Translations under genes and position numbers: made by a program
Notes under the pieces: generated by a model
The model's database searches: none
Told to the model about the DNA's origin: nothing
What the model saw: the letters and a program-made list of their open reading frames with translations, nothing else
In this document: positions 11,900-31,537 of the stretch, one piece after another
Numbering within the stretch: the first letter of the stretch is position 1
Layout of the letters: each line of letters starts with the position of its first letter
From: Rhizobiales bacterium 62-47
Lineage (GTDB): Bacteria > Pseudomonadota > Alphaproteobacteria > Rhizobiales > Xanthobacteraceae
DNA length: 64,000 bases
Direction of reading: 5' to 3'
Assembly: GCA_001899255.1 (NCBI GenBank)
Contig: MKVX01000006.1
Coordinates: 1-64,000 of the forward strand

Positions 11900-12859
11900 T
11901 CAGAAATTGAGGCCGAACAGCAGCCTGGCCTGGTGGCGCTCGAAATGGGTGAGGTCGAGCGCGCCGGCCTCGCCGGCCGCCTTGCCGGCGATCTGGCTGC
12001 TCCAGGCCGCAGTCAGCCAGGCGCGGGGCGACAGCCTTATGAACAGTGTCGGTCCGATGAAGCCGGCGTGTCCGGCAAAGTCGCCAAAGCCGAGGCTCTC
12101 ATAGTAACGGAGGTAGCGCGCCTCGACGCCAACGAAGACCCCCGGCGTGAGTTGCGCCATCAGCGCACCGGCAATGCCCGACGTGGAGTCCTGCGACCAT
12201 GTGGCGGTCGCTTTCGCACGCGAGGTTTCGGGCTGATACAGCAGGTTGAACGCCGCGACGATGCGGTCCGGAACGATCTCCTTGTCGAAGGCCGCAACGA
12301 AATCGGCGCCGTATTGCCGGACCGATGCTCCGGAAACTTCATCCACCCGCGTCCAGTGCGGTTCGACGCCGACGGCAAAGCCAAACGGCGCGGTGGCGCG
12401 GTCGAGCAACCGGTATCGTATATCCATCGACACCCCGCCGATTGCTGCCTGCCGCCGATCTTCGAAGCCGCTCACGCCGGCAATGTCATAGGCAGCGACG
12501 ATTGCGGTGAATTCCGTGCGCAGATTCTGCATCGGGACGAATTCGGCCGAGATTGTCTGTTCGCCGGCACGGTAGGTTCCCGTGCGCTTGCCTGCGCGTC
12601 CCGTGGTCGTTCCTTCGAGCTCGCGTTCGCCCAGGGTCCCGACGTCGCTACCTATCGTGAAGCCGAACAGATGCTCGGTTTCGATCTCACCGAGTCGATC
12701 CCCTGCATGGCTCTCGGTGCTGTGCATGAACAGGTACAGCGCAGTGAGCAAGCAGGCTGCGATGCTGAGTTTGCGCGTTGCGCCGACGCCACGACGGCCA
12801 CCGCGATGCGATGCATATCGCAGTCGGGAGAGATGAAGAATTGTCGGCCGCAATGGCAT
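11900..12859 (-). CDS. Probable outer-membrane beta-barrel protein
   Basis: A 319-residue protein I cannot place in a named family. It has a long basic N-terminus then a hydrophobic signal segment (about residues 29-46, AACLLTALYLFMHS, ending near SHAGD). The mature part has alternating beta-strand pattern with many aromatic residues and ends in LLFGLNF; a C-terminal Phe is typical of outer-membrane barrels. It is divergent from the PQQ alcohol dehydrogenase and shares its 202-bp upstream region, so co-regulation and a role as a channel or envelope component are plausible. The start at 12859 is uncertain; a shorter start nearer the signal segment is possible. Confidence 0.55.
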   Translation of the reverse strand: MPLRPTILHLSRLRYASHRGGRRGVGATRKLSIAACLLTALYLFMHSTESHAGDRLGEIETEHLFGFTIGSDVGTLGERELEGTTTGRAGKRTGTYRAGEQTISAEFVPMQNLRTEFTAIVAAYDIAGVSGFEDRRQAAIGGVSMDIRYRLLDRATAPFGFAVGVEPHWTRVDEVSGASVRQYGADFVAAFDKEIVPDRIVAAFNLLYQPETSRAKATATWSQDSTSGIAGALMAQLTPGVFVGVEARYLRYYESLGFGDFAGHAGFIGPTLFIRLSPRAWLTAAWSSQIAGKAAGEAGALDLTHFERHQARLLFGLNF

Positions 12860-12904
12860 GACTTGGCGTCCGGTGTCGGGACGAATTCCCGAATATAGCC
12901 GGGA

Positions 12905-12925
12905 CTACTACCTTCCGCCTATACT
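12905..12925 (+). promoter_or_regulatory. CTACTACC motif and -10 box upstream of the PQQ dehydrogenase
   Basis: CTACTACC at 12905-12912 is followed after seven bases by TATACT (12920-12925), a good -10 box, about 137 bp before the ATG. No -35 consensus is visible at the right distance, and the motif occupies that region, which would fit an activator-dependent promoter. Confidence 0.45.
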
Positions 12926-13061
12926 GGCTGTGAAAATCCGATGCTGTAATTCCATCACGATGGCGCAGCTCCGGCGCGCGCATCGGCGCTTTGCAAATGT
13001 GCTCTGCGGATTCAGTTGGTCGAAGTGCCAACGCGGCGAAAGCAACATTGGGAGGAAGCAG

Positions 13062-14780
13062 ATGAGATTGAGGAGCAGGGGTTTATTGGCCGGCGTTTCG
13101 ATTCTCGCCAGCCTTGCCGCGGGGGCGATTGGCGCCAGCGCCAACGATACCGTGGTCAAAGCGGTAGCCGATCCCAATCAGTGGGCGGTCGCCGGACACG
13201 ACTACGCCAACACGCGCTATAGTCCGCTCAAGCAGATCACAGCAGATAATGTCGATAAGCTGTCCCTGGTCTACTCGTTTTCGCTCGCCTCGCTCCGGTC
13301 GAATGAATCATCGCCGGTGATCATCGGCGACATGCTGTATGTGACGACATCCTGGGGTCCGAAGTACGTCTACGCGCTCGATGCCGCGACCGGCGCGCGG
13401 AAGTGGACCTATGAACCTGAAATTCCTGACGATGTGCTGCAATATGCCTGCTGCGACGTGAACAATCGCGGCGTCTCCTATGCCGATGGCAAACTCTTCG
13501 TCGGTCGTCTCGACGGCAAGCTGACCGCGCTCGATGCCAAGACCGGCAAGGAACTCTGGACCACCAAGGTGGTCGACTACAAGCAGGGGTCGGTCATTAC
13601 TTCGCCGCCGCTCGTCGTGCGTGACAAGGTCATCACCGGTTTCGGTGGCGGTGAATATGGCGTGCGTGGCGCGTTGCTGGCGTTCGATGCCAACACCGGC
13701 AAGCAGTTGTGGCAGACCTACACCGTTCCGGCTCCCGGCGAAGAAGGCAGCGACACTTGGAAGGGCGACACCGGATTGCATGGCGGTGGCGCCGCGTGGC
13801 TGGTCGGCTCCTACGACGCCAAGACCGACACGGTGTATTGGGGCACCAGCAATCCCGGCCCGTGGAATACCGGCGTGCGTTCGACCGGCGACGGCAATTT
13901 CGGCAAACTGTCGAACCTCTACACATCGTCAACGCTGGCGCTCGATCCGAACACCGGCAAGATCAAGTGGCACATTCAGAATACTCCGGCCGATGCTTGG
14001 GACTATGACGGCGTGAACGAACTCGTGCTGGCCGATCTCAAGATCGGAGGCGCCGATACGCCGGTGTTGATGAAGGCGGATCGCAACGGATTCTTCTTCG
14101 TTGCCAATCGCGAGACCGGCAAGGTTCTGTCTGCCGAGAAGTTCGTCGCTTCCACCAACTGGGCCAAGTCATGGGACATCAAGACCATGCGGGCGGTCGA
14201 AGATGCGGACAAGCGTCCGGGTCCGGGGCATCCCGCCAAGGACATCTGTCCGAATCTGATCGGCGGCAAGAACTGGCAGCCGATGTCGTTCAATCCGGAA
14301 ACCGGTCTCGTCTATATCCCGACGAACAACGTTTGCATGGACTGGGCGGTCAGTGACGTGTCCTACAAGCGCGGTGTGTTCTATCTCGGTGCGGAATTCC
14401 CAACCAAGGAAGGCCCGGGCGGATTCCTCGGTGAACTCGTTGCCTGGGATCCCATCGGACAAAAGAAGGTGTGGGGCATCAAGGAAGATCTGCCCTTCAA
14501 TGGCGGCACACTGACGACGGCAGGCAATCTCGTCTTCGCGGGCAATTTGCATGGCGAGTTCCGCGCCATCAATGCCAAGGACGGCAAGATCCTCTGGAGC
14601 AAGAAACTCGGCTCCGGCATCGGGGCGGGACCGGTCACCTATTCGGTCGGCGGCAAGCAATATGTCGCGATCGTTGTTGGCCGAACCGCAGCACTACCGG
14701 CGTTTCTCGGTGACGTCGGCAAGAAGATGACGGCCGCGGCCCCCGAAGGCGGTGCGCTGTTCGTGTTCGCCCTGCAATAA
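13062..14780 (+). CDS. PQQ-dependent alcohol dehydrogenase with lanthanide-type metal site
   Basis: A 572-residue periplasmic quinoprotein of the methanol/ethanol dehydrogenase family. The start at 13062 has GGGAGG upstream and gives a clear signal peptide (residues 1-27, cut near ASA-ND). The vicinal disulfide is C130-C131 (YACCDVNNRG). Metal/PQQ ligands fit Glu199 (GGGEYG), Asn264 (TSNPGPW) and catalytic Asp314; Asp316 in AWDYDGVNE is the extra acid that marks lanthanide-dependent enzymes (XoxF, PedH), where calcium enzymes have Ala or Ser. Outside these points it looks like a PedH/ExaA-type alcohol dehydrogenase rather than a classic XoxF. It oxidises a primary alcohol to an aldehyde and feeds a cytochrome c, probably the fused one next door. 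Confidence 0.9.
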   Translation: MRLRSRGLLAGVSILASLAAGAIGASANDTVVKAVADPNQWAVAGHDYANTRYSPLKQITADNVDKLSLVYSFSLASLRSNESSPVIIGDMLYVTTSWGPKYVYALDAATGARKWTYEPEIPDDVLQYACCDVNNRGVSYADGKLFVGRLDGKLTALDAKTGKELWTTKVVDYKQGSVITSPPLVVRDKVITGFGGGEYGVRGALLAFDANTGKQLWQTYTVPAPGEEGSDTWKGDTGLHGGGAAWLVGSYDAKTDTVYWGTSNPGPWNTGVRSTGDGNFGKLSNLYTSSTLALDPNTGKIKWHIQNTPADAWDYDGVNELVLADLKIGGADTPVLMKADRNGFFFVANRETGKVLSAEKFVASTNWAKSWDIKTMRAVEDADKRPGPGHPAKDICPNLIGGKNWQPMSFNPETGLVYIPTNNVCMDWAVSDVSYKRGVFYLGAEFPTKEGPGGFLGELVAWDPIGQKKVWGIKEDLPFNGGTLTTAGNLVFAGNLHGEFRAINAKDGKILWSKKLGSGIGAGPVTYSVGGKQYVAIVVGRTAALPAFLGDVGKKMTAAAPEGGALFVFALQ

Positions 14781-14799
14781 CAAATCGAGGGAGTCGAGA

Positions 14800-16011
14800 A
14801 TGCTTGCAAGTCGTTCGGGTCGCGACGGTAGGTCCGCTTCAAACCGATTATCTTCCGCCCCGATAACTATCTCGGCTCTCGCGATTGCGTTGACCTTGCT
14901 GGCGCCGGCCTTCGCGGCCGGTGCCGATGAAGTGCACCCGCTGCGCCTCTGTGCTGACCCGACCAATCTGCCGTTCTCGAGCGACAACCCGGCGACACCG
15001 GGACTCTATCTCGAGGTCGGGCAGGCTTTGGGCAAAGCGCTCGGGCGGCCGGTAGTCTACGATTGGTACAAGTCCTATTTCGGCAAACGTACGGTGCGGG
15101 TCACGCTGCTCGGCAAGCAATGCGATGCGATGGTTGGCCTGACACCGAGTACGGATTTCATGGGACCGGCGGTGATCTTCTCCAAGCCGATCCTCAAGGA
15201 AGGCTACGCACTGGTGACGGCGAAGGGGCGCAAGATTGCCAGCCTCGCCGATCTGAAGCCGTTGCGTGTCGCTGTGCAGTATCAGTCGACGCCGCAGAAT
15301 CTGCTGGCGCAGCGCGACGAGATCCAGAAAGTCACCGTCCTCAGTCCCGACGAAGGCATGAAGGCACTCGATCAGGGCAAGGCCGACGTGGCGTTTATCT
15401 GGGGCCCGGTCGCAGGCTGGCTGAACAAGACGGAGTATGGCGGCAAGTACGACATTCAAAGCGTCGAGGGCGAAGGCCTGCTGTGGCCGGTGGCGATCGG
15501 GTTCGCCAAGGCCTCCACGGAGTTGCGCGATCAGGTCGATGCGGTGTTGCCGCAGGTTGAAGCGTTGCTTCCCGAATTGTCCGCGAAATACGGCTTGCCT
15601 GCCGACACGCCGGTGAAACTCACGGCGCTGCAACGGCCCCTGGTCCGGCTCGCCGCCGCGGATGTGCCCGCGCCGCAGGTGGTCGTTGACGCCGGCGCGC
15701 CGCAACCGCCGCTCACAGCCGCGATCATCAAGAGCCGCGCGAATGATTCCGAGGCGGTGACCTCCGGGCGTGAGACATTCAACGGAACTTGCGCGCATTG
15801 CCATGGTCCGGACGCCGTGCAGAGCGAGCGTCATATCGATCTGCGCCGGCTCAAATTGAAATACGCCGACGACGTGCGTGACGTTTATTGGAAAACGGTG
15901 CATCAGGGCCGCCCGGCCAAAGGCATGCCGGCCTGGAAGGAAGTTTTCGACGACAAACAACTCGATGATGTTTACGCTTATCTGATGACGGTCCAAACCC
16001 CCGGAAACTAG
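14800..16011 (+). CDS. Quinoprotein-associated substrate-binding protein fused to cytochrome c (XoxJ-XoxG-like)
   Basis: A 403-residue periplasmic fusion. After a signal peptide (to about residue 40, FAAGADE) comes a solute-binding-protein-like domain (about 45-270; LRLCADPTNLPFSS, YDWYKSYFGKRTVRVTLLG) of the type found beside quinoprotein dehydrogenases (MoxJ/XoxJ, TIGR03871). A Pro/Ala linker leads to a class I cytochrome c domain: CAHCH at 331-335 with Met376 (KGMPAW) as likely sixth ligand. It begins 19 bp after the dehydrogenase, so they are one operon. Partner and electron acceptor are usually separate proteins; here they seem joined. ATG chosen because of GAGGGAG upstream. Confidence 0.85.
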   Translation: MLASRSGRDGRSASNRLSSAPITISALAIALTLLAPAFAAGADEVHPLRLCADPTNLPFSSDNPATPGLYLEVGQALGKALGRPVVYDWYKSYFGKRTVRVTLLGKQCDAMVGLTPSTDFMGPAVIFSKPILKEGYALVTAKGRKIASLADLKPLRVAVQYQSTPQNLLAQRDEIQKVTVLSPDEGMKALDQGKADVAFIWGPVAGWLNKTEYGGKYDIQSVEGEGLLWPVAIGFAKASTELRDQVDAVLPQVEALLPELSAKYGLPADTPVKLTALQRPLVRLAAADVPAPQVVVDAGAPQPPLTAAIIKSRANDSEAVTSGRETFNGTCAHCHGPDAVQSERHIDLRRLKLKYADDVRDVYWKTVHQGRPAKGMPAWKEVFDDKQLDDVYAYLMTVQTPGN

Positions 16012-16083: not shown

Positions 16084-16818
16084 ATGACGAGTTTTCTCAT
16101 AATCGACGATCATCCGCTGTTCCGGGAAGCGTTGGGGAATGCTGTGCGTCAGGCGCACCCCGACGCCGTCATCTTCGAGACGATGTCGATCAAGGGGGCG
16201 CTGCAGATTCTTGCCGATGAACAGGGGATCGATCTGGCATTGCTCGACCTGTCGTTGCCCGACGCGAGCGGGTTCTCCGGTTTCATGCGCTTGCGCGAGA
16301 CCTATCCACGACTGCCGGTCGCCATCGTGTCCAGCCACGAGGACCAGCAGGTCGTCAACGAAGCGCTCTCGCTTGGCGCCGCCGGCTATTTGCCGAAATC
16401 GACGTCAAAGACCGAACTGGCGCAGGCGATCGCTTGCGTGTTGAGCGGCTCGGTCGCAATTCCGAAGAATTTCATCGTATCGGGCGAGCGTGGCGACGCT
16501 GATTTTACGCAGGCGCTGCGCCAGCGCCTCGAGGAACTGACGCCGCAGCAACTTCGTGTGCTGGATCTGATCCGGCGCGGCTACCAGAACAAGCTGATCG
16601 CGGCCGAACTCAAGCTTGCGGAGTCCACCGTCAAGGCGCACGTCACGGAAATCTTGCGTAAGCTGAAATTGTTCAGTCGCAACAAGGCGGTGATCGAGAT
16701 CGGCAAGATCAGTCTTCCGGTGTCGAAAAAGCGTGTTGGCGCGCGATCGGACGGGGCAATGCCGCAGGTGTTGGATCACAAGCCGGCCGAGACCAGCGGA
16801 ACGCCCAGGCGGCGCTGA
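16084..16818 (+). CDS. LuxR-type response regulator, AgmR/ErbR-like (copy 1)
   Basis: A 244-residue NarL/FixJ-family response regulator. The receiver domain (1-120) has acidic pocket D8-D9 and phosphoacceptor D55 (DLALLDLSLPD); the LuxR helix-turn-helix lies near 155-215 (LTPQQLRVLDLIRRG ... STVKAHVTEILRKL). It closely resembles AgmR/ErbR regulators that activate quinoprotein ethanol oxidation in Pseudomonas, and a second copy is at 28263. It has a Ser/Arg-rich C-terminal tail of about 20 residues. It follows the dehydrogenase and cytochrome genes on the same strand. No kinase is adjacent; the EraS-like or the hybrid kinase are candidates. Confidence 0.9.
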   Translation: MTSFLIIDDHPLFREALGNAVRQAHPDAVIFETMSIKGALQILADEQGIDLALLDLSLPDASGFSGFMRLRETYPRLPVAIVSSHEDQQVVNEALSLGAAGYLPKSTSKTELAQAIACVLSGSVAIPKNFIVSGERGDADFTQALRQRLEELTPQQLRVLDLIRRGYQNKLIAAELKLAESTVKAHVTEILRKLKLFSRNKAVIEIGKISLPVSKKRVGARSDGAMPQVLDHKPAETSGTPRRR

Positions 16819-16898: not shown

Positions 16899-17885
16899 AT
16901 GCGGACCATCATCGGTGCAATTGGCATGGCGGTTGTCGTCACGTTGCTCTGCGCGGCGTCTCCGTCGATTGCCGCCGATACGCTGCGCATCGCGGTTCAA
17001 AAAACCGGCACGTTCGCATGGCAACTCAATGTTATTCAGCGGCATCGCCTCGCGGAATCGGCCAATCTCGATCTGAAGCTCACCGAAATGTCGTCGCCGG
17101 ACGCGAGCAAGCTGGCGCTCAATGCCGGCTCGGTCGATATTGCGGTGGTGGATTGGCTGTGGGTGGCGCGCGCGCGTGCGCTGGGCACGCGGCTGCAATT
17201 CTATCCTTATTCGACGGCGATCGGTGCGATCATGGTCAAGTCCGATAGTCCCTTGCGCGATCTCGCCGATCTGAAGGGGCGCACCTTGTCGGTTGCGGGC
17301 GGGCCGCTCGACAAGAGCTGGCTGATCGTTCAGGCGGCTGCGATACGTCGTGGTCTCGATCTGAAGCGCGAGGCGACACTGCAATATGGCGCGCCGTCCC
17401 TGATGTTTCAAAAGACCTTGCAGAATGAATCGCAGGCCAGCCTCAATTTCTGGAATTTTTGTGCGCGGCTGGAAGCGCGCGGCTATCGCCGGCTGTACGA
17501 TGTCCGTCAAGCCCAGATCGAATTGGGGTTGAAGGAGCCGCTGGCGTTGACCGGATATGTCTTTGCGGAAAAGTTTGCGGCGACTCACCGCGATGCCATC
17601 GAACGTTTCCTGATCGTGGCACAGAAGGCCAACGATATCCTGCTGCAATCCGATGCCGAATGGGAGGCGTTGCGGCCTGTGATGCAGGCGGAAGATCAGG
17701 CAACCTTCGAAGCCTACCGGGATCGTACCCGCGAGGGCATCCCGCGCCGCGCCATTCCGGCGGAGGAGGCCGACGCACGGACGTTGTTCAAGACTCTGGT
17801 GGAAATTGCCGGTCCGGCGCTGTTGGGTTCCGCCAAGCAGATCACGCCGGGTCTGTACTATCATCGTGCATCGCCCGGAGGATGA
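16899..17885 (+). CDS. ABC transporter solute-binding protein (NMT1/SsuA-like)
   Basis: A 328-residue periplasmic binding protein with a signal peptide (residues 1-26, ending SIAADTLR). The fold markers are TLRIAVQKTGTFAWQLNVI, the Asp-rich DASKLALNAGSVDIAVVDW (about 68-86) and the second-lobe DLADLKGRTLSVAGG. It belongs to the nitrate/sulfonate/taurine/thiamine-precursor group, whose ligand cannot be read from sequence. It is the first gene of a three-gene importer (permease and ATPase follow with 3-bp and overlapping spacing) inside the PQQ locus, which suggests a ligand linked to alcohol oxidation. Confidence 0.85.
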   Translation: MRTIIGAIGMAVVVTLLCAASPSIAADTLRIAVQKTGTFAWQLNVIQRHRLAESANLDLKLTEMSSPDASKLALNAGSVDIAVVDWLWVARARALGTRLQFYPYSTAIGAIMVKSDSPLRDLADLKGRTLSVAGGPLDKSWLIVQAAAIRRGLDLKREATLQYGAPSLMFQKTLQNESQASLNFWNFCARLEARGYRRLYDVRQAQIELGLKEPLALTGYVFAEKFAATHRDAIERFLIVAQKANDILLQSDAEWEALRPVMQAEDQATFEAYRDRTREGIPRRAIPAEEADARTLFKTLVEIAGPALLGSAKQITPGLYYHRASPGG

Positions 17886-17888: not shown

Positions 17889-18626
17889 TTGGCGAAAGTT
17901 CTCTCGCTCGCGGCGCTGCTCGGTTTGTGGACGCTGGTCGCGTGGCTGACACAGTCCCCGCTGTTGCCGAGTCCGATGCGCGTCGGTGAGGCGATTCTCG
18001 TGGATATGCAATCGGGCGAATTGCCGTTCCAGATGGCGTGCACGCTGGCGCGGGTCGTCGCGGCGTTTGTCATTGCCTTCACGCTGGGGGTTGCAGCAGG
18101 CTACGCAATGGGCCGATGGAGGTCGGTCGATCGCTATGCGGATCCTTGGCTGGTGGTGCTGCTCAATCTGCCGGCGCTGGTCATCATCATCTTCGCTTAT
18201 ATCTGGATCGGTCTCAACGAGACCGCTGCGATCGTCGCGGTGGCGCTCAACAAGTTGCCGAATGTCATCGTGGTGACGCGCGAAGGCGCCCGCTCACTCG
18301 ATCCCAATCTGGACGAGATGGCGCGCGCCTTTCGCTTCAGTTGGCAATCGAAACTGCGCAACGTCATCATGCCGCAGCTGGCGCCTTATCTCGCGGCGGT
18401 GTCGCGTTCCGGTCTCGCTATCATCTGGAAGATCGTGCTCGTCGTCGAATTGCTGGGGCGGCCAAATGGCGTCGGCTTCGTGCTCGGTTCGTCGTTCTCG
18501 CTGTTCGATATGACCCGGATTTTGAGCTATGCGATCTCGTTCGTGGCGCTTATGCTCGCGATCGAAACATTCGTGGTGCAACCGCTTGAACGACGCACGA
18601 ACCGATGGCGCCGCCGGGCCGCTTGA
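17889..18626 (+). CDS. ABC transporter permease (SsuC/TauC-like)
   Basis: A 245-residue inner-membrane permease with about six hydrophobic segments and the coupling-loop EAA-type motif (EMARAFRFSWQSKLRNVIMP near residues 141-160). It starts at TTG 17889, three bases after the stop of the binding protein, with GGAGG upstream. It is the membrane part of the importer encoded at 16899-19347. Substrate unknown. Confidence 0.87.
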   Translation: MAKVLSLAALLGLWTLVAWLTQSPLLPSPMRVGEAILVDMQSGELPFQMACTLARVVAAFVIAFTLGVAAGYAMGRWRSVDRYADPWLVVLLNLPALVIIIFAYIWIGLNETAAIVAVALNKLPNVIVVTREGARSLDPNLDEMARAFRFSWQSKLRNVIMPQLAPYLAAVSRSGLAIIWKIVLVVELLGRPNGVGFVLGSSFSLFDMTRILSYAISFVALMLAIETFVVQPLERRTNRWRRRAA

Positions 18627-19347
18627 AATCCGCATCGATTCGAAGACCTACGTGTCGGCCGAAGGACAAGCCGTCGAGGTTATCCGCGACCTGACGCTGC
18701 GGCTTGATGCCTTTTCGGTCGGCGCGCTGATCGGACCGTCCGGGTGCGGCAAGACCACGATCCTGCACATCGCCGCGGGTCTCGATCCGAATTTCATCGG
18801 GCATTTGCGAATTCCGGGGCAGGGGAGGTTAGGCGTCGTATTCCAGGAGCCGCGTCTGTTGCCGTGGCGCACGGTGGCCGACAACATCCGGCTGGTGCTG
18901 CCTCCCGAACAGTCGTTCGACCAACTCGATGATCTGATTGACACGCTCGGGCTCGGCGCGCATCTGACGCACTATCCCGGCGAACTGTCGCTCGGGCTGG
19001 CGCGGCGCGTGGCGATCGCGCGGGCCTTCGCGGTGCAGCCGGATTTTCTGCTGCTCGACGAACCTTTCGTGTCGCTGGACGTCGCGGTCGCCGCGCGGTT
19101 ACGCGACGAACTGACGATGTTGACGCAACGTCGGCAAGTCACGACGTTGCTTGTCACCCACGATCTCGAGGACGCCATTCAATTGGCCGATCGGCTGTTC
19201 TTCCTGTCGATGCGGCCGGCCAATATTATTGCCGAGATGGCTTTGCCGCCACCGCGCGGCGCGCGCGACAAGGCCACAATCGATGAGATCGCTGAACAGG
19301 TGAAGTCGCAAGTTCCGGGATACGCGTCCGGTGCCGCGCGGACCTGA
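18586..19347 (+). CDS. ABC transporter ATP-binding protein (SsuB/TauB-like)
   Basis: An ATPase of about 253 residues driving the importer. Walker A is GPSGCGKTT, the Q-loop is VVFQEPRLLPWRT, Walker B is DFLLLDEPF and the H-loop is LVTHDLEDA. The signature helix reads LSLGLARRVAIARA, not the usual LSGGQ; the rest is intact, so this looks like a subfamily variant, not decay. The start is uncertain: I chose TTG 18586, overlapping the permease by 41 bp; the first ATG in frame is 18529. It ends 10 bp before the convergent EraR-like gene. Confidence 0.85.
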   Translation: MNDARTDGAAGPLEIRIDSKTYVSAEGQAVEVIRDLTLRLDAFSVGALIGPSGCGKTTILHIAAGLDPNFIGHLRIPGQGRLGVVFQEPRLLPWRTVADNIRLVLPPEQSFDQLDDLIDTLGLGAHLTHYPGELSLGLARRVAIARAFAVQPDFLLLDEPFVSLDVAVAARLRDELTMLTQRRQVTTLLVTHDLEDAIQLADRLFFLSMRPANIIAEMALPPPRGARDKATIDEIAEQVKSQVPGYASGAART

Positions 19348-19356: not shown

Positions 19357-20007
19357 TCAGGCAAGGCGCGATTCGATCGCCACGCGCACCAGTTCGGACG
19401 AGGTGCGGACACCGAGTTTTTGACGAATGATCGACGACGTGTTCGCAACGGTCTTGTAAGACGCGTTGATCATGCCCGCGATCTCGGAAAGGCTTTTTCC
19501 GGCGCCGAGTAGTCGCAGGATCTCGATCTCGCGCGATGTCAGCTTGGCGAGGCGGCTCGACGCGAAGTTCGGCCCGGCGAATGCGAGATTCTGAGCGATC
19601 GAGGGCGGCAGGAACGTGCCGCCCTTGCTCACCTGGTCGATGGCGGTCACCAGATCGCTCGGATCGCCGGATTTGGAGACATATCCCTTGGCGCCGGCCT
19701 CGATCGCTCGCGCGGCGAAAATCGGATCGTCGTTCATGCTGAACATGATGATCCGCGCCGATGCGTCGCGGCGCAAGATTCGGCGTGCCAGTTCGAATCC
19801 GGAAACACCGGGCAGGTTGATATCGATGACGCAAACGTCGGGGGATTCCGTGACGAACGATGCCTCGCCGCTTTCGGCGTCGGCGGCGTCGCTGATAACG
19901 ATGTCTGGATCGTCCGCCAGCATGGCACGGCAACCGGACACCACGATCGGATGATCGTCGACGATCAAAACCCCAACTCTGCTCGCTGCTTTCGACTTTG
20001 CCATCAT
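19357..20007 (-). CDS. LuxR-type response regulator (EraR/ExaE-like)
   Basis: A 216-residue NarL-family regulator. Receiver domain residues D17, D18 and phosphoacceptor D62 (VIDINLPG), conserved Lys in YVSKSG, and a LuxR helix-turn-helix at about 148-205 (LTSREIEILRLLGAGKSLSEIA ... KTVANTSS). The frame extends to a TTG at 20046, but ATG 20007 or 20004 is a better start. It is divergent from a sensor kinase 128 bp away, forming an EraSR/ExaDE-like pair known to control PQQ ethanol dehydrogenase genes in Pseudomonas. Confidence 0.88.
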   Translation of the reverse strand: MMAKSKAASRVGVLIVDDHPIVVSGCRAMLADDPDIVISDAADAESGEASFVTESPDVCVIDINLPGVSGFELARRILRRDASARIIMFSMNDDPIFAARAIEAGAKGYVSKSGDPSDLVTAIDQVSKGGTFLPPSIAQNLAFAGPNFASSRLAKLTSREIEILRLLGAGKSLSEIAGMINASYKTVANTSSIIRQKLGVRTSSELVRVAIESRLA

Positions 20008-20135
20008 GACCGGCGAGATTACGCGCGCATCTGGATATCGCGTCAAAATGCTGTACCGTCGATTAGAACGTCGCAGATTTCATCTGTCAACGCTCGCCGA
20101 AGACGCAGGCTGTAACGGGGGACTGGAGCGAGAGG

Positions 20136-21576: not shown

Positions 21577-21584
21577 CTACCACC
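21577..21584 (+). promoter_or_regulatory. CTACCACC motif upstream of the TonB receptor
   Basis: CTACCACC followed by TTCTGG matches CTACTACC-TTCCG at 12905 with one change in the octamer. It lies about 71 bp before the receptor ATG. It is the fourth member of the locus-wide motif set and supports co-regulation of the receptor with the dehydrogenase. Confidence 0.35.
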
Positions 21585-24039: not shown

Positions 24040-24885
24040 TCAATTGGCCGGTCCGCCACGGCGGGTGAGCAGGCCGCGCGATGGATCGTAGGCCAGGATG
24101 GCGCCAGCGAGAAACACGACGGTGCAGCCGGCGACAACCAGCAGCGCCGTCCATTCCATCTTGCCATAGAGCGCAAAGCGGATCAGCTCGGTGGCGTGCG
24201 TAAACGGATTCGCCTCGCACACGTAATAGAGCAGCAAGCTGGACTCCTTGACCCGCCACAGCGGATAAAGTGCCGATGACGCGAAGAACATCGGGAAGAT
24301 CACGAAGTTCATGACGCCCGCGAAATTTTCGAGTTGCTTGATCAGCGACGAGATCAGCATGCCCAGCGCGCCGAGCATGAAGCCGCACAGCAGCAGCGCC
24401 GGGATCACCGTCAGATAGCCGAGCGGCGGCACCTCGATATCCCAGAACCAGGCGATCAGCAGGAAGGCGTAAACCTGCAAGATCGAGACCATGGTGCCGG
24501 CAAGCAGCTTCGAGGTCAGTAGCCACCAGCGCGGGAAGGGGCTGACCAGTAGCGTGCGCATGCCGCCGGTTTCACGGTCGTAGACCATAGTGAGGGACGA
24601 TTGCATACCGTTGAAGAGCTGGATCATCGCGATCAGCCCCGGCGCGATGTAGACTTCATACAGCACGTAGGTTTCGTAGGGCGGGATGATCGAGACGCCG
24701 AGCACCTGGCGAAAGCCGGCGGCGAAGATGAACAGCCAGACCAGCGGCCGGACCAGCGCCGAGATGAAGCGTTCACGCTGGTGAACGAAGCGCAGGCCTT
24801 CGCGCCAGACGATGCCGCAGAGGCAGATCCAGTATTGCGCCAGCGTGAATTGGTGCCGGTGTGGAATCTCCGCGAAACTGCTCAT
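24040..24885 (-). CDS. ABC-2 type permease, PQQ alcohol dehydrogenase-associated (PedC-like)
   Basis: A 281-residue inner-membrane protein of the ABC-2 family with six hydrophobic segments (for example LVRPLVWLFIFAAGF, LLLCGFMLGALGMLISSLI). It matches the permease type reported with quinoprotein alcohol dehydrogenases (PedC, TIGR03861). ATG 24885 has GGAGG upstream and overlaps the ATPase stop by 4 bp (ATGA), so the pair is translationally coupled. In Pseudomonas putida the PedA1A2BC system is needed for growth on scarce lanthanides. Direction of transport is unresolved for this family. It is the last gene of a four-gene operon. Confidence 0.85.
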   Translation of the reverse strand: MSSFAEIPHRHQFTLAQYWICLCGIVWREGLRFVHQRERFISALVRPLVWLFIFAAGFRQVLGVSIIPPYETYVLYEVYIAPGLIAMIQLFNGMQSSLTMVYDRETGGMRTLLVSPFPRWWLLTSKLLAGTMVSILQVYAFLLIAWFWDIEVPPLGYLTVIPALLLCGFMLGALGMLISSLIKQLENFAGVMNFVIFPMFFASSALYPLWRVKESSLLLYYVCEANPFTHATELIRFALYGKMEWTALLVVAGCTVVFLAGAILAYDPSRGLLTRRGGPAN

Positions 24886-25655
24886 GGGCACGCCTCCGCG
24901 TCGACCGCGGCGTCGGTCTGCGTCAGCTTGCCGAAAGCAGCGCCGATGTTGGCGGTGTTGGTCGTGGCCACCACGTCGCGCACTGACCCGCGCGCCAGCA
25001 CGCGGCCTTGATGCAGGATGACCACGTCGTCGTCGGCGCCGACTTCGTCAATGAGGTGCGTCGCCCACAGCACGCCAAGCCCTGTCGCCAGCAATCGCCG
25101 GACGTGGCCGAGAATATCGGCGCGCGCCTTGACGTCGAGGCCGACGGTTGGTTCATCCAGTAACAGCAGTCTGGGCCGATGCAGCAGAGCGCGGGCGATC
25201 TCGACGCGCCGCATCTGACCGCCGGAGAGATTGCTGACCCGTTCGCGCCGCCGATCGGCCAGGTCGACGAGGGCGAGAACGCGGTCGATCTCCTGATGCG
25301 CCGCCTGACGACCGATCCCGTGCAAGGCGGCGTGATAGATCAGGTTCTGCTGGACCGAGATGTCGACATCGAGCGCGCGCGACTGGAACACCACGCCGAG
25401 CTTGCTCAGCGCGGCGCCCGGTTCAGTTTCGACATTGTGGCCGAGAATGCGGATGCGGCCGGTCCGGATCGCATAGAGGCGGGTTATCAGCGAAAACAGT
25501 GTGGACTTCCCGGCGCCGTTCAGGCCGAGGAGCACCGTAAACGACGCGGGCGCAACGTTGAAACTGACATCCTGCAAAGCAACGCGCGCACCATAGCGAT
25601 GGCCGATGCTGGTGACATCGAGCGCAGGTGGATCGAGTTGCACGGCTGTGTTCAT
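24882..25655 (-). CDS. ABC transporter ATP-binding protein, PQQ system (PedB-like)
   Basis: A 257-residue ATPase of the ABC-2 partner type. Walker A is LNGAGKST, the Q-loop LGVVFQSRALD, signature LSGGQMRRVEIARAL, Walker B LLLLDEPTVGLD and the H-loop ATHLIDE. It drives the permease at 24040. ATG 25655 was chosen; the long upstream extension to 25826 is a shadow of the propeller gene. It begins 17 bp after the beta-propeller gene. It resembles the ATPase family annotated as PQQ-dependent alcohol dehydrogenase system (TIGR03864). Confidence 0.88.
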   Translation of the reverse strand: MNTAVQLDPPALDVTSIGHRYGARVALQDVSFNVAPASFTVLLGLNGAGKSTLFSLITRLYAIRTGRIRILGHNVETEPGAALSKLGVVFQSRALDVDISVQQNLIYHAALHGIGRQAAHQEIDRVLALVDLADRRRERVSNLSGGQMRRVEIARALLHRPRLLLLDEPTVGLDVKARADILGHVRRLLATGLGVLWATHLIDEVGADDDVVILHQGRVLARGSVRDVVATTNTANIGAAFGKLTQTDAAVDAEACP

Positions 25656-25672
25656 CGGTTCCGTTCTGTCGC

Positions 25673-26656
25673 TCACTTGGGAGCCATCGCGACGCCCCAC
25701 GGCAGTTCGCCGACCTGGATGGATTTGACGACCTTGAGCGCCGCCACGTCGATCACCGAAACGTCGTTCGACAGGCCATTGGCCGCGAGCAGATACTTGC
25801 CATCCGGCGTGAAGGCTCCATGCCAAACCCGTTGGCCGACGAGAAGATACTTCACCACCTCATGCGTCGTGCCGTCAACGACGGCGATGCGGTTGGATGG
25901 ACCGAGATGAATGAAGCCGAATTTACCGTCGCTGGTGATGTTGATGCCGACCGGCTGGATCTTCTCCGGCCGCAAACCGGGAATGGCGAAGTGCACCACC
26001 TTGACGATCTTGCGGGTGAGCGGATCGACGATCGACAGGCCGCCGCCGACTTCCGACGTCACCCATAGCTCCGATCCGTCCGGCTTGAATGCCGCGGCCC
26101 GCGGGCGCGCGCCGAGCAGCACGTTGGCCACTACCTTGCGCTCCGCAGTATCGATGAAGTGCGCCATGCTGGTCGTTTCCGAGGTGCAGATAACGTATTT
26201 TCCGTCGGGGCTGACGACGATGCCTTCAGGTTCGACGCCGACCGCGATCTTGGCCACGGCCTTGCGCGTCTCGAGATCGATGACGGTGACGGCTGCGTCG
26301 TCCTCGTTGGCGACATAGAGCAGCTTGCCGGCGGGATCGAGCGCGAATTGCTCGGGATCCGGTCCCGACGGCAATTCGCCGACGATCTTGCGTGTCGCCG
26401 TATCGATCATCTGAATGGTGTTATCGTCGCCGACGGCGACAAAAACCAGCTTGCCATCCTTTGAGACCTCGATGCCGCGCGGCCGGTCGCCGGTCTTGAT
26501 CGTTGCTACCGTCGTCATGGTGTCGGTGTCCAGCACCGAAACGGAATTGCCCTTCTCGTTGGAGATATAGGCGGTGAAGGCGGCAGCGGATGCGGCCGTC
26601 CATGCGAGCAGGACGATTGCCAGACCAAACTGTTTGATGACGCCTTGGTTGGTCAT
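25673..26656 (-). CDS. PQQ-associated YVTN beta-propeller protein
   Basis: A 327-residue exported protein with signal peptide (1-26, AASAAAFTAYIS). It consists of about seven YVTN-type blades such as AYISNEKGNSVSVLDTDT, LLYVANEDDAAVTVIDLET and DGKYLLAANGLSNDVSVIDV. This is the beta-propeller family that accompanies PQQ-dependent catabolism and its ABC transporter (TIGR03866). It could bind the transported ligand in the periplasm or scaffold the complex. It sits between the binding protein and ATPase genes (31 and 17 bp gaps). ATG 26656 gives the signal peptide; longer frames do not. Confidence 0.87.
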   Translation of the reverse strand: MTNQGVIKQFGLAIVLLAWTAASAAAFTAYISNEKGNSVSVLDTDTMTTVATIKTGDRPRGIEVSKDGKLVFVAVGDDNTIQMIDTATRKIVGELPSGPDPEQFALDPAGKLLYVANEDDAAVTVIDLETRKAVAKIAVGVEPEGIVVSPDGKYVICTSETTSMAHFIDTAERKVVANVLLGARPRAAAFKPDGSELWVTSEVGGGLSIVDPLTRKIVKVVHFAIPGLRPEKIQPVGINITSDGKFGFIHLGPSNRIAVVDGTTHEVVKYLLVGQRVWHGAFTPDGKYLLAANGLSNDVSVIDVAALKVVKSIQVGELPWGVAMAPK

Positions 26657-26687
26657 ACGAAGATCCCCGCAGCGCCGGAAGGCCGGA

Positions 26688-27941
26688 TCAATTGAGTTTG
26701 CATTTGGTTTCCGGTCGGTCGAGGCCGAGCGTATCCAGCTCCGAGACCTGATGCAGGAATCCTTCCTGCGGCGATATCGACACCGTGTTGCGGCCATCGA
26801 ACAGCAGGATCGGCTGTCGCAATTGCAGGTTCCAGTCGCGCAGCGTCAGCTTCTGGCCTTTGAAAGCCGCAACGGAAAACTCGGGACTCTTGATGAAGGC
26901 AAACAATTTCGCCGTGTCGCTGGTATTCGCGCGCGAGGCCGCTTCGGCGACCATGCGTATGGCAGTCCACAGTTGCATGTCGAGCGGTGTCATGAAGCGC
27001 TGAAACTGTTTCCTGAAACGGTTCTGCAATTGCAGCGCCCCCCATTGATCGAACGCGGCATTCCATGTTGTCGGCACCAGCCCTGCGGAGCCGGCAACCG
27101 GACGCGGCAGCCATGTGCGATAGGGCAGGTAGCCGGCGAACACTTCGCTTTCGTCGGCCGCGACAAGAATGTCGTAGTCGGGTGCGCCCTGCGTCAGGTT
27201 GATCATCTGCCGCTGGATTTCGGCTATGCCGCTGTCGGTGCGCCGGGCGCCGCCGGTATCCTTGAATTCCAGCTCAGCAACGATCTTGGCGCCGAACCGT
27301 TTCGCCGCATGGCGATAGGCGTCCGCCATCAGCTTGTCGTTGTCGTGCGAACCGCTCACCAGCAGCCAACGCCGCCACTTCTTCAGGATCAGGTATTGCG
27401 CAAGACCGTCGGCGAGCATGAAACGCGTCGGCGCAACGTGAATCAGATTGGCGCGGCAGTCCTGTTCGCGCAGGCGCTCATCCGGCGCGCTGGCGTTGAT
27501 GAAGATTTCGCCGCGTGCCTTGCCGGCATCGGCCGCTTGCAGGAGTTGAGCGGCGGGCAGCGCCGTCGCGATGAACGCGACGTTCTGATCGGCCAGCTTG
27601 TTGACGGCGGCTGTGGGATCCTCGCCATCTTTGAGCAGAATATCGATCAGTTCGAACTGCTGACCGACGAAGCGGCCGGTCGTGTTATTGTCTTCGATGG
27701 CCAGTTGTGCGCCGGCCAGCCCTTCGTTCGCGGTCGGAATATCGATCAGAGAGATTCGCTCTTTCGCAAGGGGCGCACGCAGATAGCCGATCTTGATCTG
27801 CTGAGGTTCGGCAGCCCGGCTTGAATCGGCCAAGCTCAGGGCCACGCATCCCGCGAGGGCAAGCCACAGCACGGCCTTCGGATGGCAGCGCGTTGGAGGC
27901 AAACTCCGCAGCCAACGATGCCATGCGGCGAATCCTGCCAT
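26688..27941 (-). CDS. Periplasmic binding protein of the PQQ alcohol dehydrogenase ABC system
   Basis: A 417-residue protein with a signal region to about residue 43 (ALSLADSSRAAEP) and a type I binding-protein fold (IKIGYLRAPLAKE, GAQLAIEDNNTTGRF, then two-lobe pattern with WLLVSGSHDNDKLMADAY). It matches the family annotated as ABC substrate-binding protein of the PQQ-dependent alcohol dehydrogenase system (TIGR03863). It is the first gene of the operon running to 24040. Start ATG 27941 has GGGAG upstream; the 321-bp region before it holds a CTACTACC motif. Ligand unproven, lanthanide complex suspected. Confidence 0.86.
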   Translation of the reverse strand: MAGFAAWHRWLRSLPPTRCHPKAVLWLALAGCVALSLADSSRAAEPQQIKIGYLRAPLAKERISLIDIPTANEGLAGAQLAIEDNNTTGRFVGQQFELIDILLKDGEDPTAAVNKLADQNVAFIATALPAAQLLQAADAGKARGEIFINASAPDERLREQDCRANLIHVAPTRFMLADGLAQYLILKKWRRWLLVSGSHDNDKLMADAYRHAAKRFGAKIVAELEFKDTGGARRTDSGIAEIQRQMINLTQGAPDYDILVAADESEVFAGYLPYRTWLPRPVAGSAGLVPTTWNAAFDQWGALQLQNRFRKQFQRFMTPLDMQLWTAIRMVAEAASRANTSDTAKLFAFIKSPEFSVAAFKGQKLTLRDWNLQLRQPILLFDGRNTVSISPQEGFLHQVSELDTLGLDRPETKCKLN

Positions 27942-28262
27942 GCGCACTCCCAAACCCGTCCCGTTGCAATTTTTGATGCTCCGATATTGGAGCTTGCCCG
28001 GCATGATCTACCATTCACGATAAGGGACAAGGGCCAATTGGTAGTAGACGGCGCCGGGCTGGTCGCGGCTATGATGACCGCGCCGATGTGGAACGGCTGG
28101 GAAACTCGAGCGAAATCAACTTCCGCGATGAATCGCTGCGTGTTATAGAAACGGACAACCAACAAAAGTGAATGAGGCTTGGAAAATCGGGCTTGATTGA
28201 GCGTGTTTTCGTACAGCCGCATGGTTGATTGACGATCCGCTCAGGGTGAGGATCGTGAGGGC
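27942..28262. promoter_or_regulatory. Divergent intergenic region with a CTACTACC motif
   Basis: This 321-bp gap separates the binding-protein operon (leftward) from an AgmR/ErbR-like regulator (rightward) and contains no convincing gene. GGTAGTAG at 28040-28047 is the locus motif CTACTACC on the minus strand, about 100 bp upstream of the binding protein start. The right half is AT-richer and probably carries the regulator promoter. Confidence 0.5.
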
Positions 28263-28958
28263 ATGACGCGATTTCTGATTGTTGAGGATCATCCGCTGTT
28301 CCGCGAAGCGCTGGAAAGCGCGGTTTGCGTCGCCAATCCCGAAGCTGAAATTCTGCAGGCGACATCGATCGATGGGGCCTTGGATGTGCTGGGTTCTACC
28401 CACGCCGTTGATCTGATCTTGCTTGACCTGTCGATGCCCGGCACCACCGGCTTGTCGGGCGTCATCCGCGTCCGCAAGGCGTTTCCCAAGACGCCGGTCG
28501 TCATCGTATCCGGCTTCGAGGACAAGGAGATCATCCGTAGCGTATTGTCGCTCGGCGTCTCCGGCTACATCCCCAAATCGACATCGAAGCGCGAACTGGC
28601 CGATTCAATTCGCGAAGTCTTGCACGGGTCGATCTATCTCCCGAAGCGGTTCCGCGATGTCGCCCGCACCAAGAGGACCAAAGCCGGTAATCTGGATCTG
28701 CTGAAGCGCCTGCATGACCTGACGCCGCAGCAGTTGCGCGTGCTCGACATGGTCCGGCGTGGTTTGCAGAACAAGCAGATCGCATATGAATTGAAGATCT
28801 GTGAAACGACCGTCAAAGTGCATGTCTCGGAAATTCTACGCAAGCTGAATGTGTTGAGCCGCACCAATGCGATCATTGAAATATCAAAGATCGATTTCGT
28901 CAGCCTCGCCAGCGAGGCGCCGGCCAAGCACAACGTTCTCGATCACGCTCAGGCGTAA
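28263..28958 (+). CDS. LuxR-type response regulator, AgmR/ErbR-like (copy 2)
   Basis: A 231-residue NarL-family regulator. Receiver pocket E8-D9, phosphoacceptor D55 (LILLDLSMPG), conserved Lys in YIPKSTSK near residue 104, and a LuxR domain near 155-215 (LTPQQLRVLDMVRRGLQNKQIA, TTVKVHVSEILRKLN). It is clearly paralogous to the regulator at 16084, sharing long stretches of both domains, and closely resembles AgmR/ErbR. It is divergent from the PQQ ABC operon, the likely target, and convergent with the hybrid kinase operon. Confidence 0.9.
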   Translation: MTRFLIVEDHPLFREALESAVCVANPEAEILQATSIDGALDVLGSTHAVDLILLDLSMPGTTGLSGVIRVRKAFPKTPVVIVSGFEDKEIIRSVLSLGVSGYIPKSTSKRELADSIREVLHGSIYLPKRFRDVARTKRTKAGNLDLLKRLHDLTPQQLRVLDMVRRGLQNKQIAYELKICETTVKVHVSEILRKLNVLSRTNAIIEISKIDFVSLASEAPAKHNVLDHAQA

Positions 28959-29015
28959 TCGTTTCGCATCGGCATTCGGGTCGCCTCGGCCGGGTTGGTT
29001 CGGCGCGATGCAGTG

Positions 29016-30368
29016 CTAGGCCAACAGAAACGATAGCAGCGAGCGCATTTCAGCCGGTTTGATCGGCTTTCGCAGCAGTTCAAGACCATAGATCGAGGCT
29101 TCCTTTTCGGCGCTGACCGAATAGTCCGCGGTGACGATAATCGCCGGGACCTCAATCTTGATCTGCTCCCGGATCGCGTTCACCGCATTGAGGCCATTCT
29201 CGCCGTTGTCGAGATGCAGGTCGGCAATGATCGCGTCCGGTGGTTCGCCGAGCGCGCCGATGCGCTCCAACGCATCCGCCGTCGAGATCGTCGATGCGAC
29301 ATCGCAGCCCCATTTTTCCAATAGCGTTGCCATCGCCTCGGCGCTGGATGGATCGTTCTCGATCAGCAGGATCTTGCTGCCTTCAAGTCCGCTGTAGTGG
29401 AAGTCGATATGCTGAACTTCGCGGCTCGCTTCGGTGAAATGCGTGGGCTCGCTGCGTGGCACGGTGATCGAAAACGTCGAGCCGTGGCCCAGCCGCGATG
29501 CCAGCCGGATCTCGTGCCCGAGCTCGGTCGCGAAGCGGCGAACGATGGATAGGCCAAGGCCGAAGCCGGCCTGTTCGTCGTCGATCGTCTCGCCGCGCTG
29601 GAATTCGAGGAAGATGGCCTGGCGTTGCGCTTCCGGAATGCCCGGGCCGGTGTCGTGTACCTCGATGCAAAGCGAGTCGCCGCGCTGCCGACAACCCATG
29701 AGCACGCCGCCCTTCTGGGTGTAGCGCAAGGCATTGGCCAGCAGGTTCTGCAAGATGCGGCGCATCATCAGCGGATCGGTGCTCACCACGCACGATGACG
29801 GGCGGATCTTCAATGACAGGCCGCGCTTGGCGGCGAGGGGTGCAAACTCCTGACGTAGCGGTTCGAATAACGATGCAACTGTGATCGGGCGAACCTCGGG
29901 CCGTAGGACACCGGCATCCAGTTTGGAAATATCCAGCAGCGTTCGCAGCAGGTCCTCGAGCGTCAACAGCGATCGGTCGACTTGTCCGATCAGCGCGATG
30001 CCTTGCGGGGACACGTTCATTTCGGCGAGCGTCGAGAGTGTCAATCGCGCCGCGTTGAGCGGCTGAAGTAGATCGTGCGTGACCGAAATCAGCACCGATG
30101 ACTTGAGCGAGCTTGCCGCTTCGGCCTGCTGCTTGGCGCGCAGCAGGTCGTCGTTGGATCGTTCGATCGATTGCAAGGCGTCCTGCAATTGCCGCGTGCG
30201 TTCCAGCACACGGTGATCCAGCGCGATCGCCGTCTCGAACAACGAGAAAGCATTTGCCTGCTGATCCATCGAACGCTCGACACGGGACATCAGCGCGGAA
30301 TTGATCTTCTTGAGTTTGGTGGCTTCGCGCTGCAATGCGTCGATTTGGTTTGACTGTTGCGACGTCAT
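29016..30368 (-). CDS. Hybrid histidine kinase/receiver protein (NahK/ErcS'-like)
   Basis: A 450-residue soluble hybrid kinase. An N-terminal coiled coil (about 8-90) leads to a HisKA domain with H98 (ISVTHDLLQPLNAARL), a HATPase domain (NLLANALRYT, DTGPGIP, GFGLGLSIVRRF) and a C-terminal receiver with D383 (AIIADLHLD). No membrane segment. The ATG overlaps the stop of the FIST gene (ATGA), so sensor and kinase are coupled. In Pseudomonas aeruginosa the equivalent pair (PA1975 NosP and PA1976 NahK/ErcS') also lies beside the quinoprotein ethanol oxidation genes, which supports this assignment. Confidence 0.88.
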   Translation of the reverse strand: MTSQQSNQIDALQREATKLKKINSALMSRVERSMDQQANAFSLFETAIALDHRVLERTRQLQDALQSIERSNDDLLRAKQQAEAASSLKSSVLISVTHDLLQPLNAARLTLSTLAEMNVSPQGIALIGQVDRSLLTLEDLLRTLLDISKLDAGVLRPEVRPITVASLFEPLRQEFAPLAAKRGLSLKIRPSSCVVSTDPLMMRRILQNLLANALRYTQKGGVLMGCRQRGDSLCIEVHDTGPGIPEAQRQAIFLEFQRGETIDDEQAGFGLGLSIVRRFATELGHEIRLASRLGHGSTFSITVPRSEPTHFTEASREVQHIDFHYSGLEGSKILLIENDPSSAEAMATLLEKWGCDVASTISTADALERIGALGEPPDAIIADLHLDNGENGLNAVNAIREQIKIEVPAIIVTADYSVSAEKEASIYGLELLRKPIKPAEMRSLLSFLLA

Positions 30369-31537
30369 GCGGAAGCGGACCTCTTGCCGATGGCAACGCC
30401 AGTCAGCGTTTGATTGACGTGCATCGAGCGATATTGCTCACCATAAGTATGAAAGCCGACGACATGGTTCTCCCGATAGAGTTGCGACATGTCGCGGGCG
30501 AACTGATGTTGCTCGGCGTCGAGGCGGCGAAATACACATTCGAAGCCGAGGTAGAGCGAAACGTCACCGATCTCCGCTTGCGTTTCGGCAAACAGGTCGC
30601 GGGTTGCGGTGACGGGATTGCGCGCCTGCGCGACGGTCAGCACCATGCCTTCGTCGATGGCGCAGAAGAAGTTCAGGGATCCGTCCGGGTTCACCTGCTG
30701 GATCGAGCGCGCATAATAGGCGCCGCCGGCGCGGACCAGCACCGGATGCGATGCGAACGAAAACATGTCGAGCTTGGTGTCGGCGATGCCGACCGCGCGG
30801 GAATATTCTTCCGCCGCCGGTTCGGCGTTGATCTCCTTCACCACTCGCCGTTCGATGTCGGCTTCGGTGACTACCATCTTGGTTGCCGACGGCTCGAAAT
30901 TGTCGCACTTGAACAGACGGAACGGCAACGATGTCTTCAGCAGGATGAGGATAGCCGCATCGGTATGCGCTTCGCCGTGATAGAACACCCAGGTTTTTTC
31001 GAAGCGCAGGCCATCGCCGGCAGAGCCGCCGACGACGGGAATGTTGTCGAGCGAGGCGTAGATCGACGACATCACCGCTTCCTCGCGCTGACAGAGCCCG
31101 TCGATCAACAGCAGTCCAAACGATTTTTGATCGCTTCCCGTCGGTCCGCTTCGCGCCAGCTCCTGACGCAGCTCGCTGCCGATCCGTCGTCCGTCTTCGA
31201 TGCGGAAATTCGCGAGATCGAGAAGCGGGCGGGCGACGACAGTGAAATCCAGCGCACTGAAACCGAGCGCGACGATGCTGTTATCGCCCCAGCCATCGGG
31301 CGCCAATTCGCCCGCGGTGGTGCAGCCAAACACCGGTATCGCGCCGAACACCTTGCCAAGCTCTGCGGAAAACTGGTGCGGATCATAACTCGGCGACACG
31401 AACACCAGGATCATGGCGAGGCCGTCTGCCGGCAACTGCCTGGCGATCTCCGCTGCGGCCGCCGCTGCTTCAAGCTCCCGGGCTTGTGCGATGACGACGC
31501 CGGATCCATCGCTGAACCGGCTCTCGGTTCGACCCAC
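30365..31537 (-). CDS. FIST-domain sensor protein (NosP-like)
   Basis: A 390-residue cytoplasmic protein with FIST N (about 35-225; AMILVFVSPSYDPHQF, IPVFGCTTAGELAPDGW, DNIPVVGGSAGDGLRF) and FIST C domains (about 225-365; VVKEINAEPAAEEYS, YYARSIQQVNPDGS). NosP proteins of this family bind haem and sense NO, then act on the partner kinase. GTG 31537 was chosen because GGAGGAA lies just upstream; an ATG at 31585 adds 16 residues. It is upstream of and overlaps the hybrid kinase by 4 bp. Whether this member binds haem cannot be read here. Confidence 0.85.
   Translation of the reverse strand: MGRTESRFSDGSGVVIAQARELEAAAAAAEIARQLPADGLAMILVFVSPSYDPHQFSAELGKVFGAIPVFGCTTAGELAPDGWGDNSIVALGFSALDFTVVARPLLDLANFRIEDGRRIGSELRQELARSGPTGSDQKSFGLLLIDGLCQREEAVMSSIYASLDNIPVVGGSAGDGLRFEKTWVFYHGEAHTDAAILILLKTSLPFRLFKCDNFEPSATKMVVTEADIERRVVKEINAEPAAEEYSRAVGIADTKLDMFSFASHPVLVRAGGAYYARSIQQVNPDGSLNFFCAIDEGMVLTVAQARNPVTATRDLFAETQAEIGDVSLYLGFECVFRRLDAEQHQFARDMSQLYRENHVVGFHTYGEQYRSMHVNQTLTGVAIGKRSASA

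Follow-up and report, generated by a model that had tools for sequence, protein, structure and literature searches.

A candidate ped-like island around a lanthanide-type PQQ alcohol dehydrogenase in Rhizobiales bacterium 62-47

Among the closest described relatives of the locus considered here, an island of contiguous genes around a pyrroloquinoline quinone (PQQ)-dependent alcohol dehydrogenase (ADH) in Rhizobiales bacterium 62-47, is the ped cluster of Pseudomonas putida KT2440. In the available portion of its description, this cluster comprises NosP, PedS1/NahK, AgmR, PedCBA2A1, PedS2R2, ADH, a cytochrome, and a binding protein (PMC12997753). In the lut cluster of Methylorubrum extorquens, an ATP-binding cassette (ABC) system and a TonB receptor serve a lanthanide PQQ dehydrogenase (PMC7391723, available portion), and PqqT of M. 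extorquens AM1 (PDB 9b1u, 9b1v, 9ooz) binds PQQ at 50 nM (PMC12124388, available portion). How does the island compare? It occupies positions 11900 to 31537 of a 64,000-nucleotide stretch, the window, to which all coordinates refer, on contig C6 of a 4.9-Mb genome; genes and strands are those of open reading frames (ORFs). Its overall order is similar to that of ped, as far as that source goes, but one ADH of another clade stands in for PedE and PedH, the binding protein and cytochrome are fused, and a PqqT-type importer and a TonB receptor are present; pedD, pedI, and SoxYZ-like genes are absent from the island's gene calls, no separate search having been made. Compared with the lut cluster as outlined, the island has an enzyme and regulators of its own, and its receptor is likened to LutH by type only. 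Unlike PqqT of M. extorquens AM1, its importer is encoded in the same gene run as the ADH. The parts are of known kinds, but their assembly is uncommon: the enzyme is of another clade, its partner is fused, a PqqT-type importer is in the same run, and no calcium-type enzyme was found for the usual metal switch. With moderate confidence, we read the whole as a ped-like island for periplasmic alcohol oxidation, centered on a lanthanide-type PQQ dehydrogenase whose clade is sister to XoxF.

All of the genes listed in an initial annotation made from the sequence are present and contiguous, open frames and family matches agreeing. A plus-strand run, with gaps of about 3 to 80 bases or overlaps, consists of the ADH (13062-14780), the fusion (14800-16011; the ATG at 14800 is assumed, the ORF being open from 14752), response regulator 1 (16084-16818), and the binding protein (16899-17885), permease (17889-18626; BPD_transp_1), and ATPase (18529-19347; ABC_tran) of the PqqT-type importer. 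There follow a divergent pair, an EraR/PedR2-like response regulator (19357-20046, minus) and an EraS/PedS2-like histidine kinase (20136-21503, plus), then the TonB-dependent receptor (21655-24018, plus), with plug and barrel domains, and the minus-strand genes for the PedC permease (24040-24891), PedB ATPase (24882-25826), PedA2 beta-propeller (25673-26797), and PedA1 binding protein (26688-28004). Response regulator 2 (28263-28958, plus) and a minus-strand pair, a NahK/ErcS'-like hybrid histidine kinase (29016-30368) and a NosP-like FIST protein (30365-31585), complete the series. The G+C content is 0.58 to 0.66 in 2-kb steps, and the island shows no compositional break.

What kind of enzyme is the ADH? 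It matches TIGR03075 at 679.2 bits (cut-off, 480), and the Asp314-Tyr-Asp316 signature assigned to it initially is correct if residue numbering starts with the ATG at 13062, a codon preceded by GGGAGGAAGCAG. Under a metal-ligand numbering that we presume to hold for lanthanide enzymes, Glu198, Asn264, Asp314, and Asp316 lie at the ligand columns, and the four residues are conserved throughout the 79 aligned clade sequences, the window's included. The ADH thus has the extra Asp by which XoxF enzymes are linked to lanthanides; the position of Asp316 is taken by Ser in ExaA and by Thr in two quinohemoproteins. These residues make the ADH a probable rare-earth alcohol-oxidizing enzyme; a lanthanide response of the locus is predicted. 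An Asp pair predicts a metal and does not measure it, and the enzyme might work with calcium, or with either metal; with the extra Asp in every clade sequence and Ped genes adjoining the ADH, we consider this very unlikely.

In a quick tree of 93 sequences, the 79 form a clade with a Shimodaira-Hasegawa-like approximate likelihood ratio (SH-aLRT) support of 99, outside the XoxF clade, beside the XoxF1, XoxF2, and XoxF5 references and joined to XoxF at 98. Tree and residue counts cover 79 of 81 clade enzymes, those of loci L067 and L071 being partial; three paralogue rows with stops were left out. PedH and ExaA pair elsewhere, and the ADH groups with neither; ExaF is not in the tree. The initial annotation had seen a system combining the Pseudomonas and methylotroph types, which holds insofar as the enzyme is nearer to XoxF and its neighborhood ped-like, though not as a grouping with PedH or ExaA. 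Could the locus be a plain XoxF-type methanol dehydrogenase cluster? The best solved-structure match is indeed methanol dehydrogenase 4mae (451.9 bits), which we take to be a XoxF, and the clade joins XoxF. However, the ADH is just 43% identical to the genome's own XoxF5, its clade is separate with high support, and the regulators are of the ped/exa kind, so that such a cluster seems highly improbable. That XoxF5-like enzyme (1069.3 bits to M. extorquens XoxF) and the ADH are the two PQQ-ADHs found in the genome, both with the Asp-Tyr-Asp motif and hence the extra Asp, so that the genome yielded no calcium-type partner. Since, in addition, pqqC is on another contig and no aldehyde dehydrogenase is among the gene calls between 11900 and 31537, it was an overstatement to call the island complete.

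The nearest named enzymes, 91 to 92% identical, come from three metagenome-assembled genomes (MAGs) labelled Hyphomicrobiales, followed by Bradyrhizobium. The best 80 named loci (56 to 92% identical; more exist), read with flanks of up to 10 kb that were extended for the four with the whole order, include Bradyrhizobium, Rhodopila, Methylocella, Roseiarcus, Ramlibacter, Polaromonas, Comamonas, and Rokubacteria and Acidobacteria MAGs. Among the matches listed from 397 genomes of the order, a set that overlaps with the named loci (G352:C276 is the contig of L028), those with at least 59% identity belong to the window's own genome and six others, while the rest of the list reaches at most 47%. 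No relative of the enzyme turned up in one scan of viral contigs. In the available portion of a 2025 paper, one Bradyrhizobium strain is reported to have seven PQQ dehydrogenases without a known function in addition to XoxF (PMC12628762), among which we do not claim the present clade.

The proposed fusion of a binding protein and a cytochrome proved to be one ORF, with the XoxJ/PedG-like binding domain first and the cytochrome c (CxxCH) last. The binding half matches XoxJ of PDB 6onp (E value, 7.7e-11); its best NCBIfam match, TIGR03871, is at 92.9 bits, under the cut-off of 212.15, which falls short of an assignment to XoxJ/MoxJ. The cytochrome half likewise scores below the PedF cytochrome c550 model TIGR04494 (35.6 bits; cut-off, 122) and is not assigned to it. 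A XoxJ-like domain and a CxxCH cytochrome c share a single ORF in 73 of the 81 loci, the window included. The exceptions encode only the cytochrome (L085, L091), are truncated where a contig ends (L028, L052), or have no such ORF (L070, L071, which is at a contig end, L086, and L097). In the tree, L070 with L085 and L086 with L091 form two deep pairs, and L097 is nested; the history may have been either a single gain followed by loss or a later gain. A XoxG-XoxJ fusion of Methylacidiphilum also has a cytochrome and a XoxJ-type protein in one chain (PMC8498564, available portion), but the island fusion belongs to another enzyme clade and phylum.

The second ABC importer was recognized initially as present, without its PqqT-like identity. 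Sequence (phmmer, 204.5 bits to 9b1u; profile, 372.6 bits) and fold alike match its binding protein to M. extorquens PqqT: an AlphaFold2 model with a mean predicted local distance difference test (pLDDT) score of 92.3 gives Foldseek template modeling (TM) scores of 0.92 to 0.94 by target length, at 38% identity, and the E value of the next-best fold is worse by 17 orders of magnitude. Lys139 of the LDKxW motif, invariant in 27 of 27 rows, equals Lys142 of PqqT by our own mapping (PMC12828617, available portion). On sequence and modeled fold, then, the second importer is a predicted PqqT-like PQQ importer. Uptake of sulfonate, taurine, or nitrate, also considered, was dropped after the PqqT match. 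The importer may have a metal role as well: PDB 9b1v holds Gd3+, PqqT with PQQ also taking a lanthanide. The host genome has one PqqT; a second NMT1-type binding protein at 34295-35311 is SsuA-like (98.4 bits, under cut-off).

Does PqqT keep such company elsewhere? A PqqT-like gene (E value, 1e-30) occurs in 128 of the 397 genomes, with one match each, and a PQQ-ADH (1e-100) in 123. Both are found in 109, the ADH only in 14, the importer only in 19, and neither in 255 (odds ratio, 104; the p value of 8e-61 is too small because the genomes are related). In 40 PqqT stretches (sampled at intervals of three along the ranked 128, starting with the second and ending with number 119), 21 have a PQQ-ADH, 27 have PedA1, PedA2, or PedC, 31 have either, and 9 have neither, 6 of these 9 being cut by contig ends. 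Ped genes and XoxF-like and XoxJ-like genes are frequent neighbors. A limited literature search, outside which the original PqqT papers fell, found no genome-wide link of PqqT to PQQ-ADH and Ped genes in print. A further island of this composition, built on a more distant PQQ-ADH (40%), is seen in another genome of the order (L198), where a stretch of 20 kb also holds NahK, NosP, and response regulator genes along with those of the PqqT and Ped types.

The four-gene PedABC-type operon named at the outset stood up well, all four models exceeding their NCBIfam cut-offs: PedA1 (TIGR03863; 464.7 bits against 413.6), PedA2 (TIGR03866; 479.5 against 287.3), PedB (TIGR03864; 326.5 against 302.25), and PedC (TIGR03861; 401.6 against 241.35). 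The genes are thus assigned to PedA1A2BC, and the window's PedC is the only one over cut-off in the genome. A PedA2-like propeller (66%) at L013:15348-16331 adjoins the genome's XoxF5. The TonB receptor has one full-length match in the genome, the next being short and weak, and no NCBIfam equivalog over cut-off; it was not taken for PqqU, whose model it matches at 89.3 bits (cut-off, 1200). As the genome has a single Ped system over cut-off and a single PqqT, both PQQ-ADHs, XoxF5 included, probably depend on the island as their sole source of Ped and PqqT supply.

As for regulation, three LuxR-type response regulators and a LapD_MoxY_N/HAMP/HisKA_3 kinase were confirmed. Regulators 1 and 2 are called AgmR/ErbR-like by domains and place, the ErdR model (cut-off, 390) scoring far lower at 162.5 and 175.9 bits, respectively; the EraSR/PedS2R2 assignment likewise relies on domains and place. 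Upstream of the ADH lies a conserved 18-bp element, CTACTACCTTCCGCCTAT (12905-12922, plus), which the initial annotation had missed and whose first 15 bases, CTACTACCTTCCGCC (12905-12919), end 142 bases ahead of the ATG. The ADH ORF extends upstream through the element; because its spacing to the enzyme varies among loci, we take it as non-coding. With at most 2 of 18 mismatches, the element precedes the ADH in 36 of 36 loci where response regulator 1, at 50% identity or more, is encoded no farther than 4 kb downstream, and in 0 of 34 without it; no locus has 2 to 4 mismatches. These counts set aside nine loci cut downstream, one of which (L028) has the element, and two with short upstream sequence. 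The site before the ADH is the only one at 0 mismatches in seven of eight genomes and the best, at 1 mismatch, in the eighth (G401); G000 and G400 each contain a single additional site, with 1 mismatch. Three nested Bradyrhizobium loci (L045 to L047) have neither regulators nor element, which amounts to one nested joint loss. The element is therefore a probable response-regulator site, judged by this co-occurrence. Within the window, the 15-base form occurs at four sites with up to 3 mismatches (0.73 expected); the one before the receptor, at 21577, has no counterpart in L109 or L110. A sigma-70 consensus scan of 12800-13100 found no promoter match. Three Rhodopila MAG loci (L057, L058, L065) share an upstream stretch, ATACGACCTTTGGGCTATTTC, whose 8 mismatches to the element are no better than shuffled sequence; it could be a diverged form of the element.

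How widely is the island kept together? The order from ADH to NosP is found in three relatives (G398, G399, and G400) and, as far as NahK at a contig end, in a fourth (G397); in G400, the barrel and CoxL genes that flank the island in the window (see below) were not seen in the fetched flanks. The neighborhood comparison that had been proposed as a check thus bears out the full order in 4 other loci, but in no more than 4 of the 80, the other 76 having been read with flanks of at most 10 kb. The 35 Bradyrhizobium-group loci frequently have the regulators (31), NahK (31), NosP (30), and CoxL (29), and none of the 35 has PedA1, PedA2, or PedC within the fetched flanks. One of them, L020, carries a broken PqqT gene between two regulators. 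In three MAG loci of Rhodopila, genes for NosP, NahK, the ADH and fusion, Ped, and PqqT also lie close together, though in a different order. This distribution fits a fuller ancestral island whose transport block was lost or moved in Bradyrhizobium, the reverse being the alternative.

Several observations weigh against the reading of a single lanthanide-type island. The contiguous arrangement is uncommon, and in the draft genome of B. diazoefficiens SZCCT0138, the strain of L020, the TonB, EraSR, and Ped genes are together on another contig. Three of the four relatives with the whole order (G397 to G399) have a more distant TonB receptor (47 to 49%) on the other strand, as recorded for L018, L019, and L048. 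The FIST-hybrid kinase pair is real as a pair of NosP-NahK-like genes, but both models are narrowly missed (NosP, NF041558, 434.1 bits against 450; NahK/ErcS domain, NF041832, 398.3 against 400), yet are by far the best matches. The link between element and regulator tracks phylogeny, 34 of the positives being close kin of Bradyrhizobium or the window, and Rhodopila-type loci, with a distant regulator on the other side of the ADH, were counted as without regulator 1 and lack the element. The extra Asp is also present in 11 of 14 sequences outside the clade and is therefore common, not a marker of it, and the tree includes 7 references but neither MxaF nor most of the numbered PQQ-ADH types; on account of the common Asp and the missing MxaF we temper our conclusion slightly, and we give the calcium alternative a little more weight.

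Might only the ADH, fusion, and regulators form one system, with the Ped, TonB, and PqqT genes serving mainly XoxF5? The Bradyrhizobium-group loci and SZCCT0138 would agree with such a loose neighborhood, as would the PqqT and Ped genes found elsewhere beside XoxF-like genes. The identical order in four other genomes speaks against it, as do the close spacing of ADH, fusion, regulator 1, and importer on one strand, the persistence of the broken PqqT gene in L020, and the presence of Ped and PqqT genes next to ADHs of the clade in the three Rhodopila loci. We judge it unlikely.

In the ped-like island that we favor, the enzyme would oxidize an alcohol with Ln3+ and PQQ and pass electrons to the cytochrome half of the fusion, while the XoxJ half would hold enzyme and cytochrome together or activate the enzyme. 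The PqqT importer would recover PQQ, the TonB receptor and PedA1A2BC would handle Ln3+, and both uptake routes would serve the separately encoded XoxF5 as well. Response regulator 1 or 2 would activate the ADH operon via the 18-bp element, with the EraSR-like pair reading metal supply and NosP-NahK adding a nitric oxide input. A bolder proposal, possible but doubtful as a whole, is that of a new class of lanthanide ADH, sister to XoxF and ranging from Bradyrhizobium to Rokubacteria and Acidobacteria MAGs, with a dedicated XoxJ-cytochrome partner, the island being the single supply of PQQ and lanthanide, switched by a nearly unique site and nitric oxide. The locus would link PQQ uptake, lanthanide transport, and a lanthanide-type enzyme at one place; its natural fusion is a chance to probe the role of XoxJ, and it offers a testable function for a PQQ dehydrogenase branch common in Bradyrhizobium.

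Beyond these genes, the window has no Rfam match at gathering scores and no tRNA by ARAGORN. The initial annotation placed the start of the island at 11900, which is the edge of an ORF missing from its own gene list (11900-12859, minus). This ORF has no Pfam or NCBIfam match and is modeled by AlphaFold2 (pLDDT, 88.6) as a 12-strand barrel, probably of the outer membrane, for which Foldseek gives FapF and a COG4313 channel at 9 to 12% identity. Next to it, at 7939-11670 (minus) and thus before 11900, lie CoxSLM-like molybdenum hydroxylase genes oriented away from the ADH: CoxS (11185-11670), CoxL (8752-11130), and CoxM (7939-8739). CoxS and CoxM are named by place and by eye, no family search having been made; CoxL reaches 684.5 bits with TIGR02416 (cut-off, 991) and is not assigned to aerobic CO dehydrogenase. 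The hydroxylase is possibly the aldehyde-oxidizing step. A CoxL relative flanks 35 of the 80 loci, mostly in Bradyrhizobium, and also in Ramlibacter, Polaromonas, and a Rokubacteria MAG (39%). Relatives of the barrel gene are found in 45 of the 397 genomes (E value, 1e-8), and in some genomes of the same family the gene lies beside other PQQ-ADH and PqqT genes.

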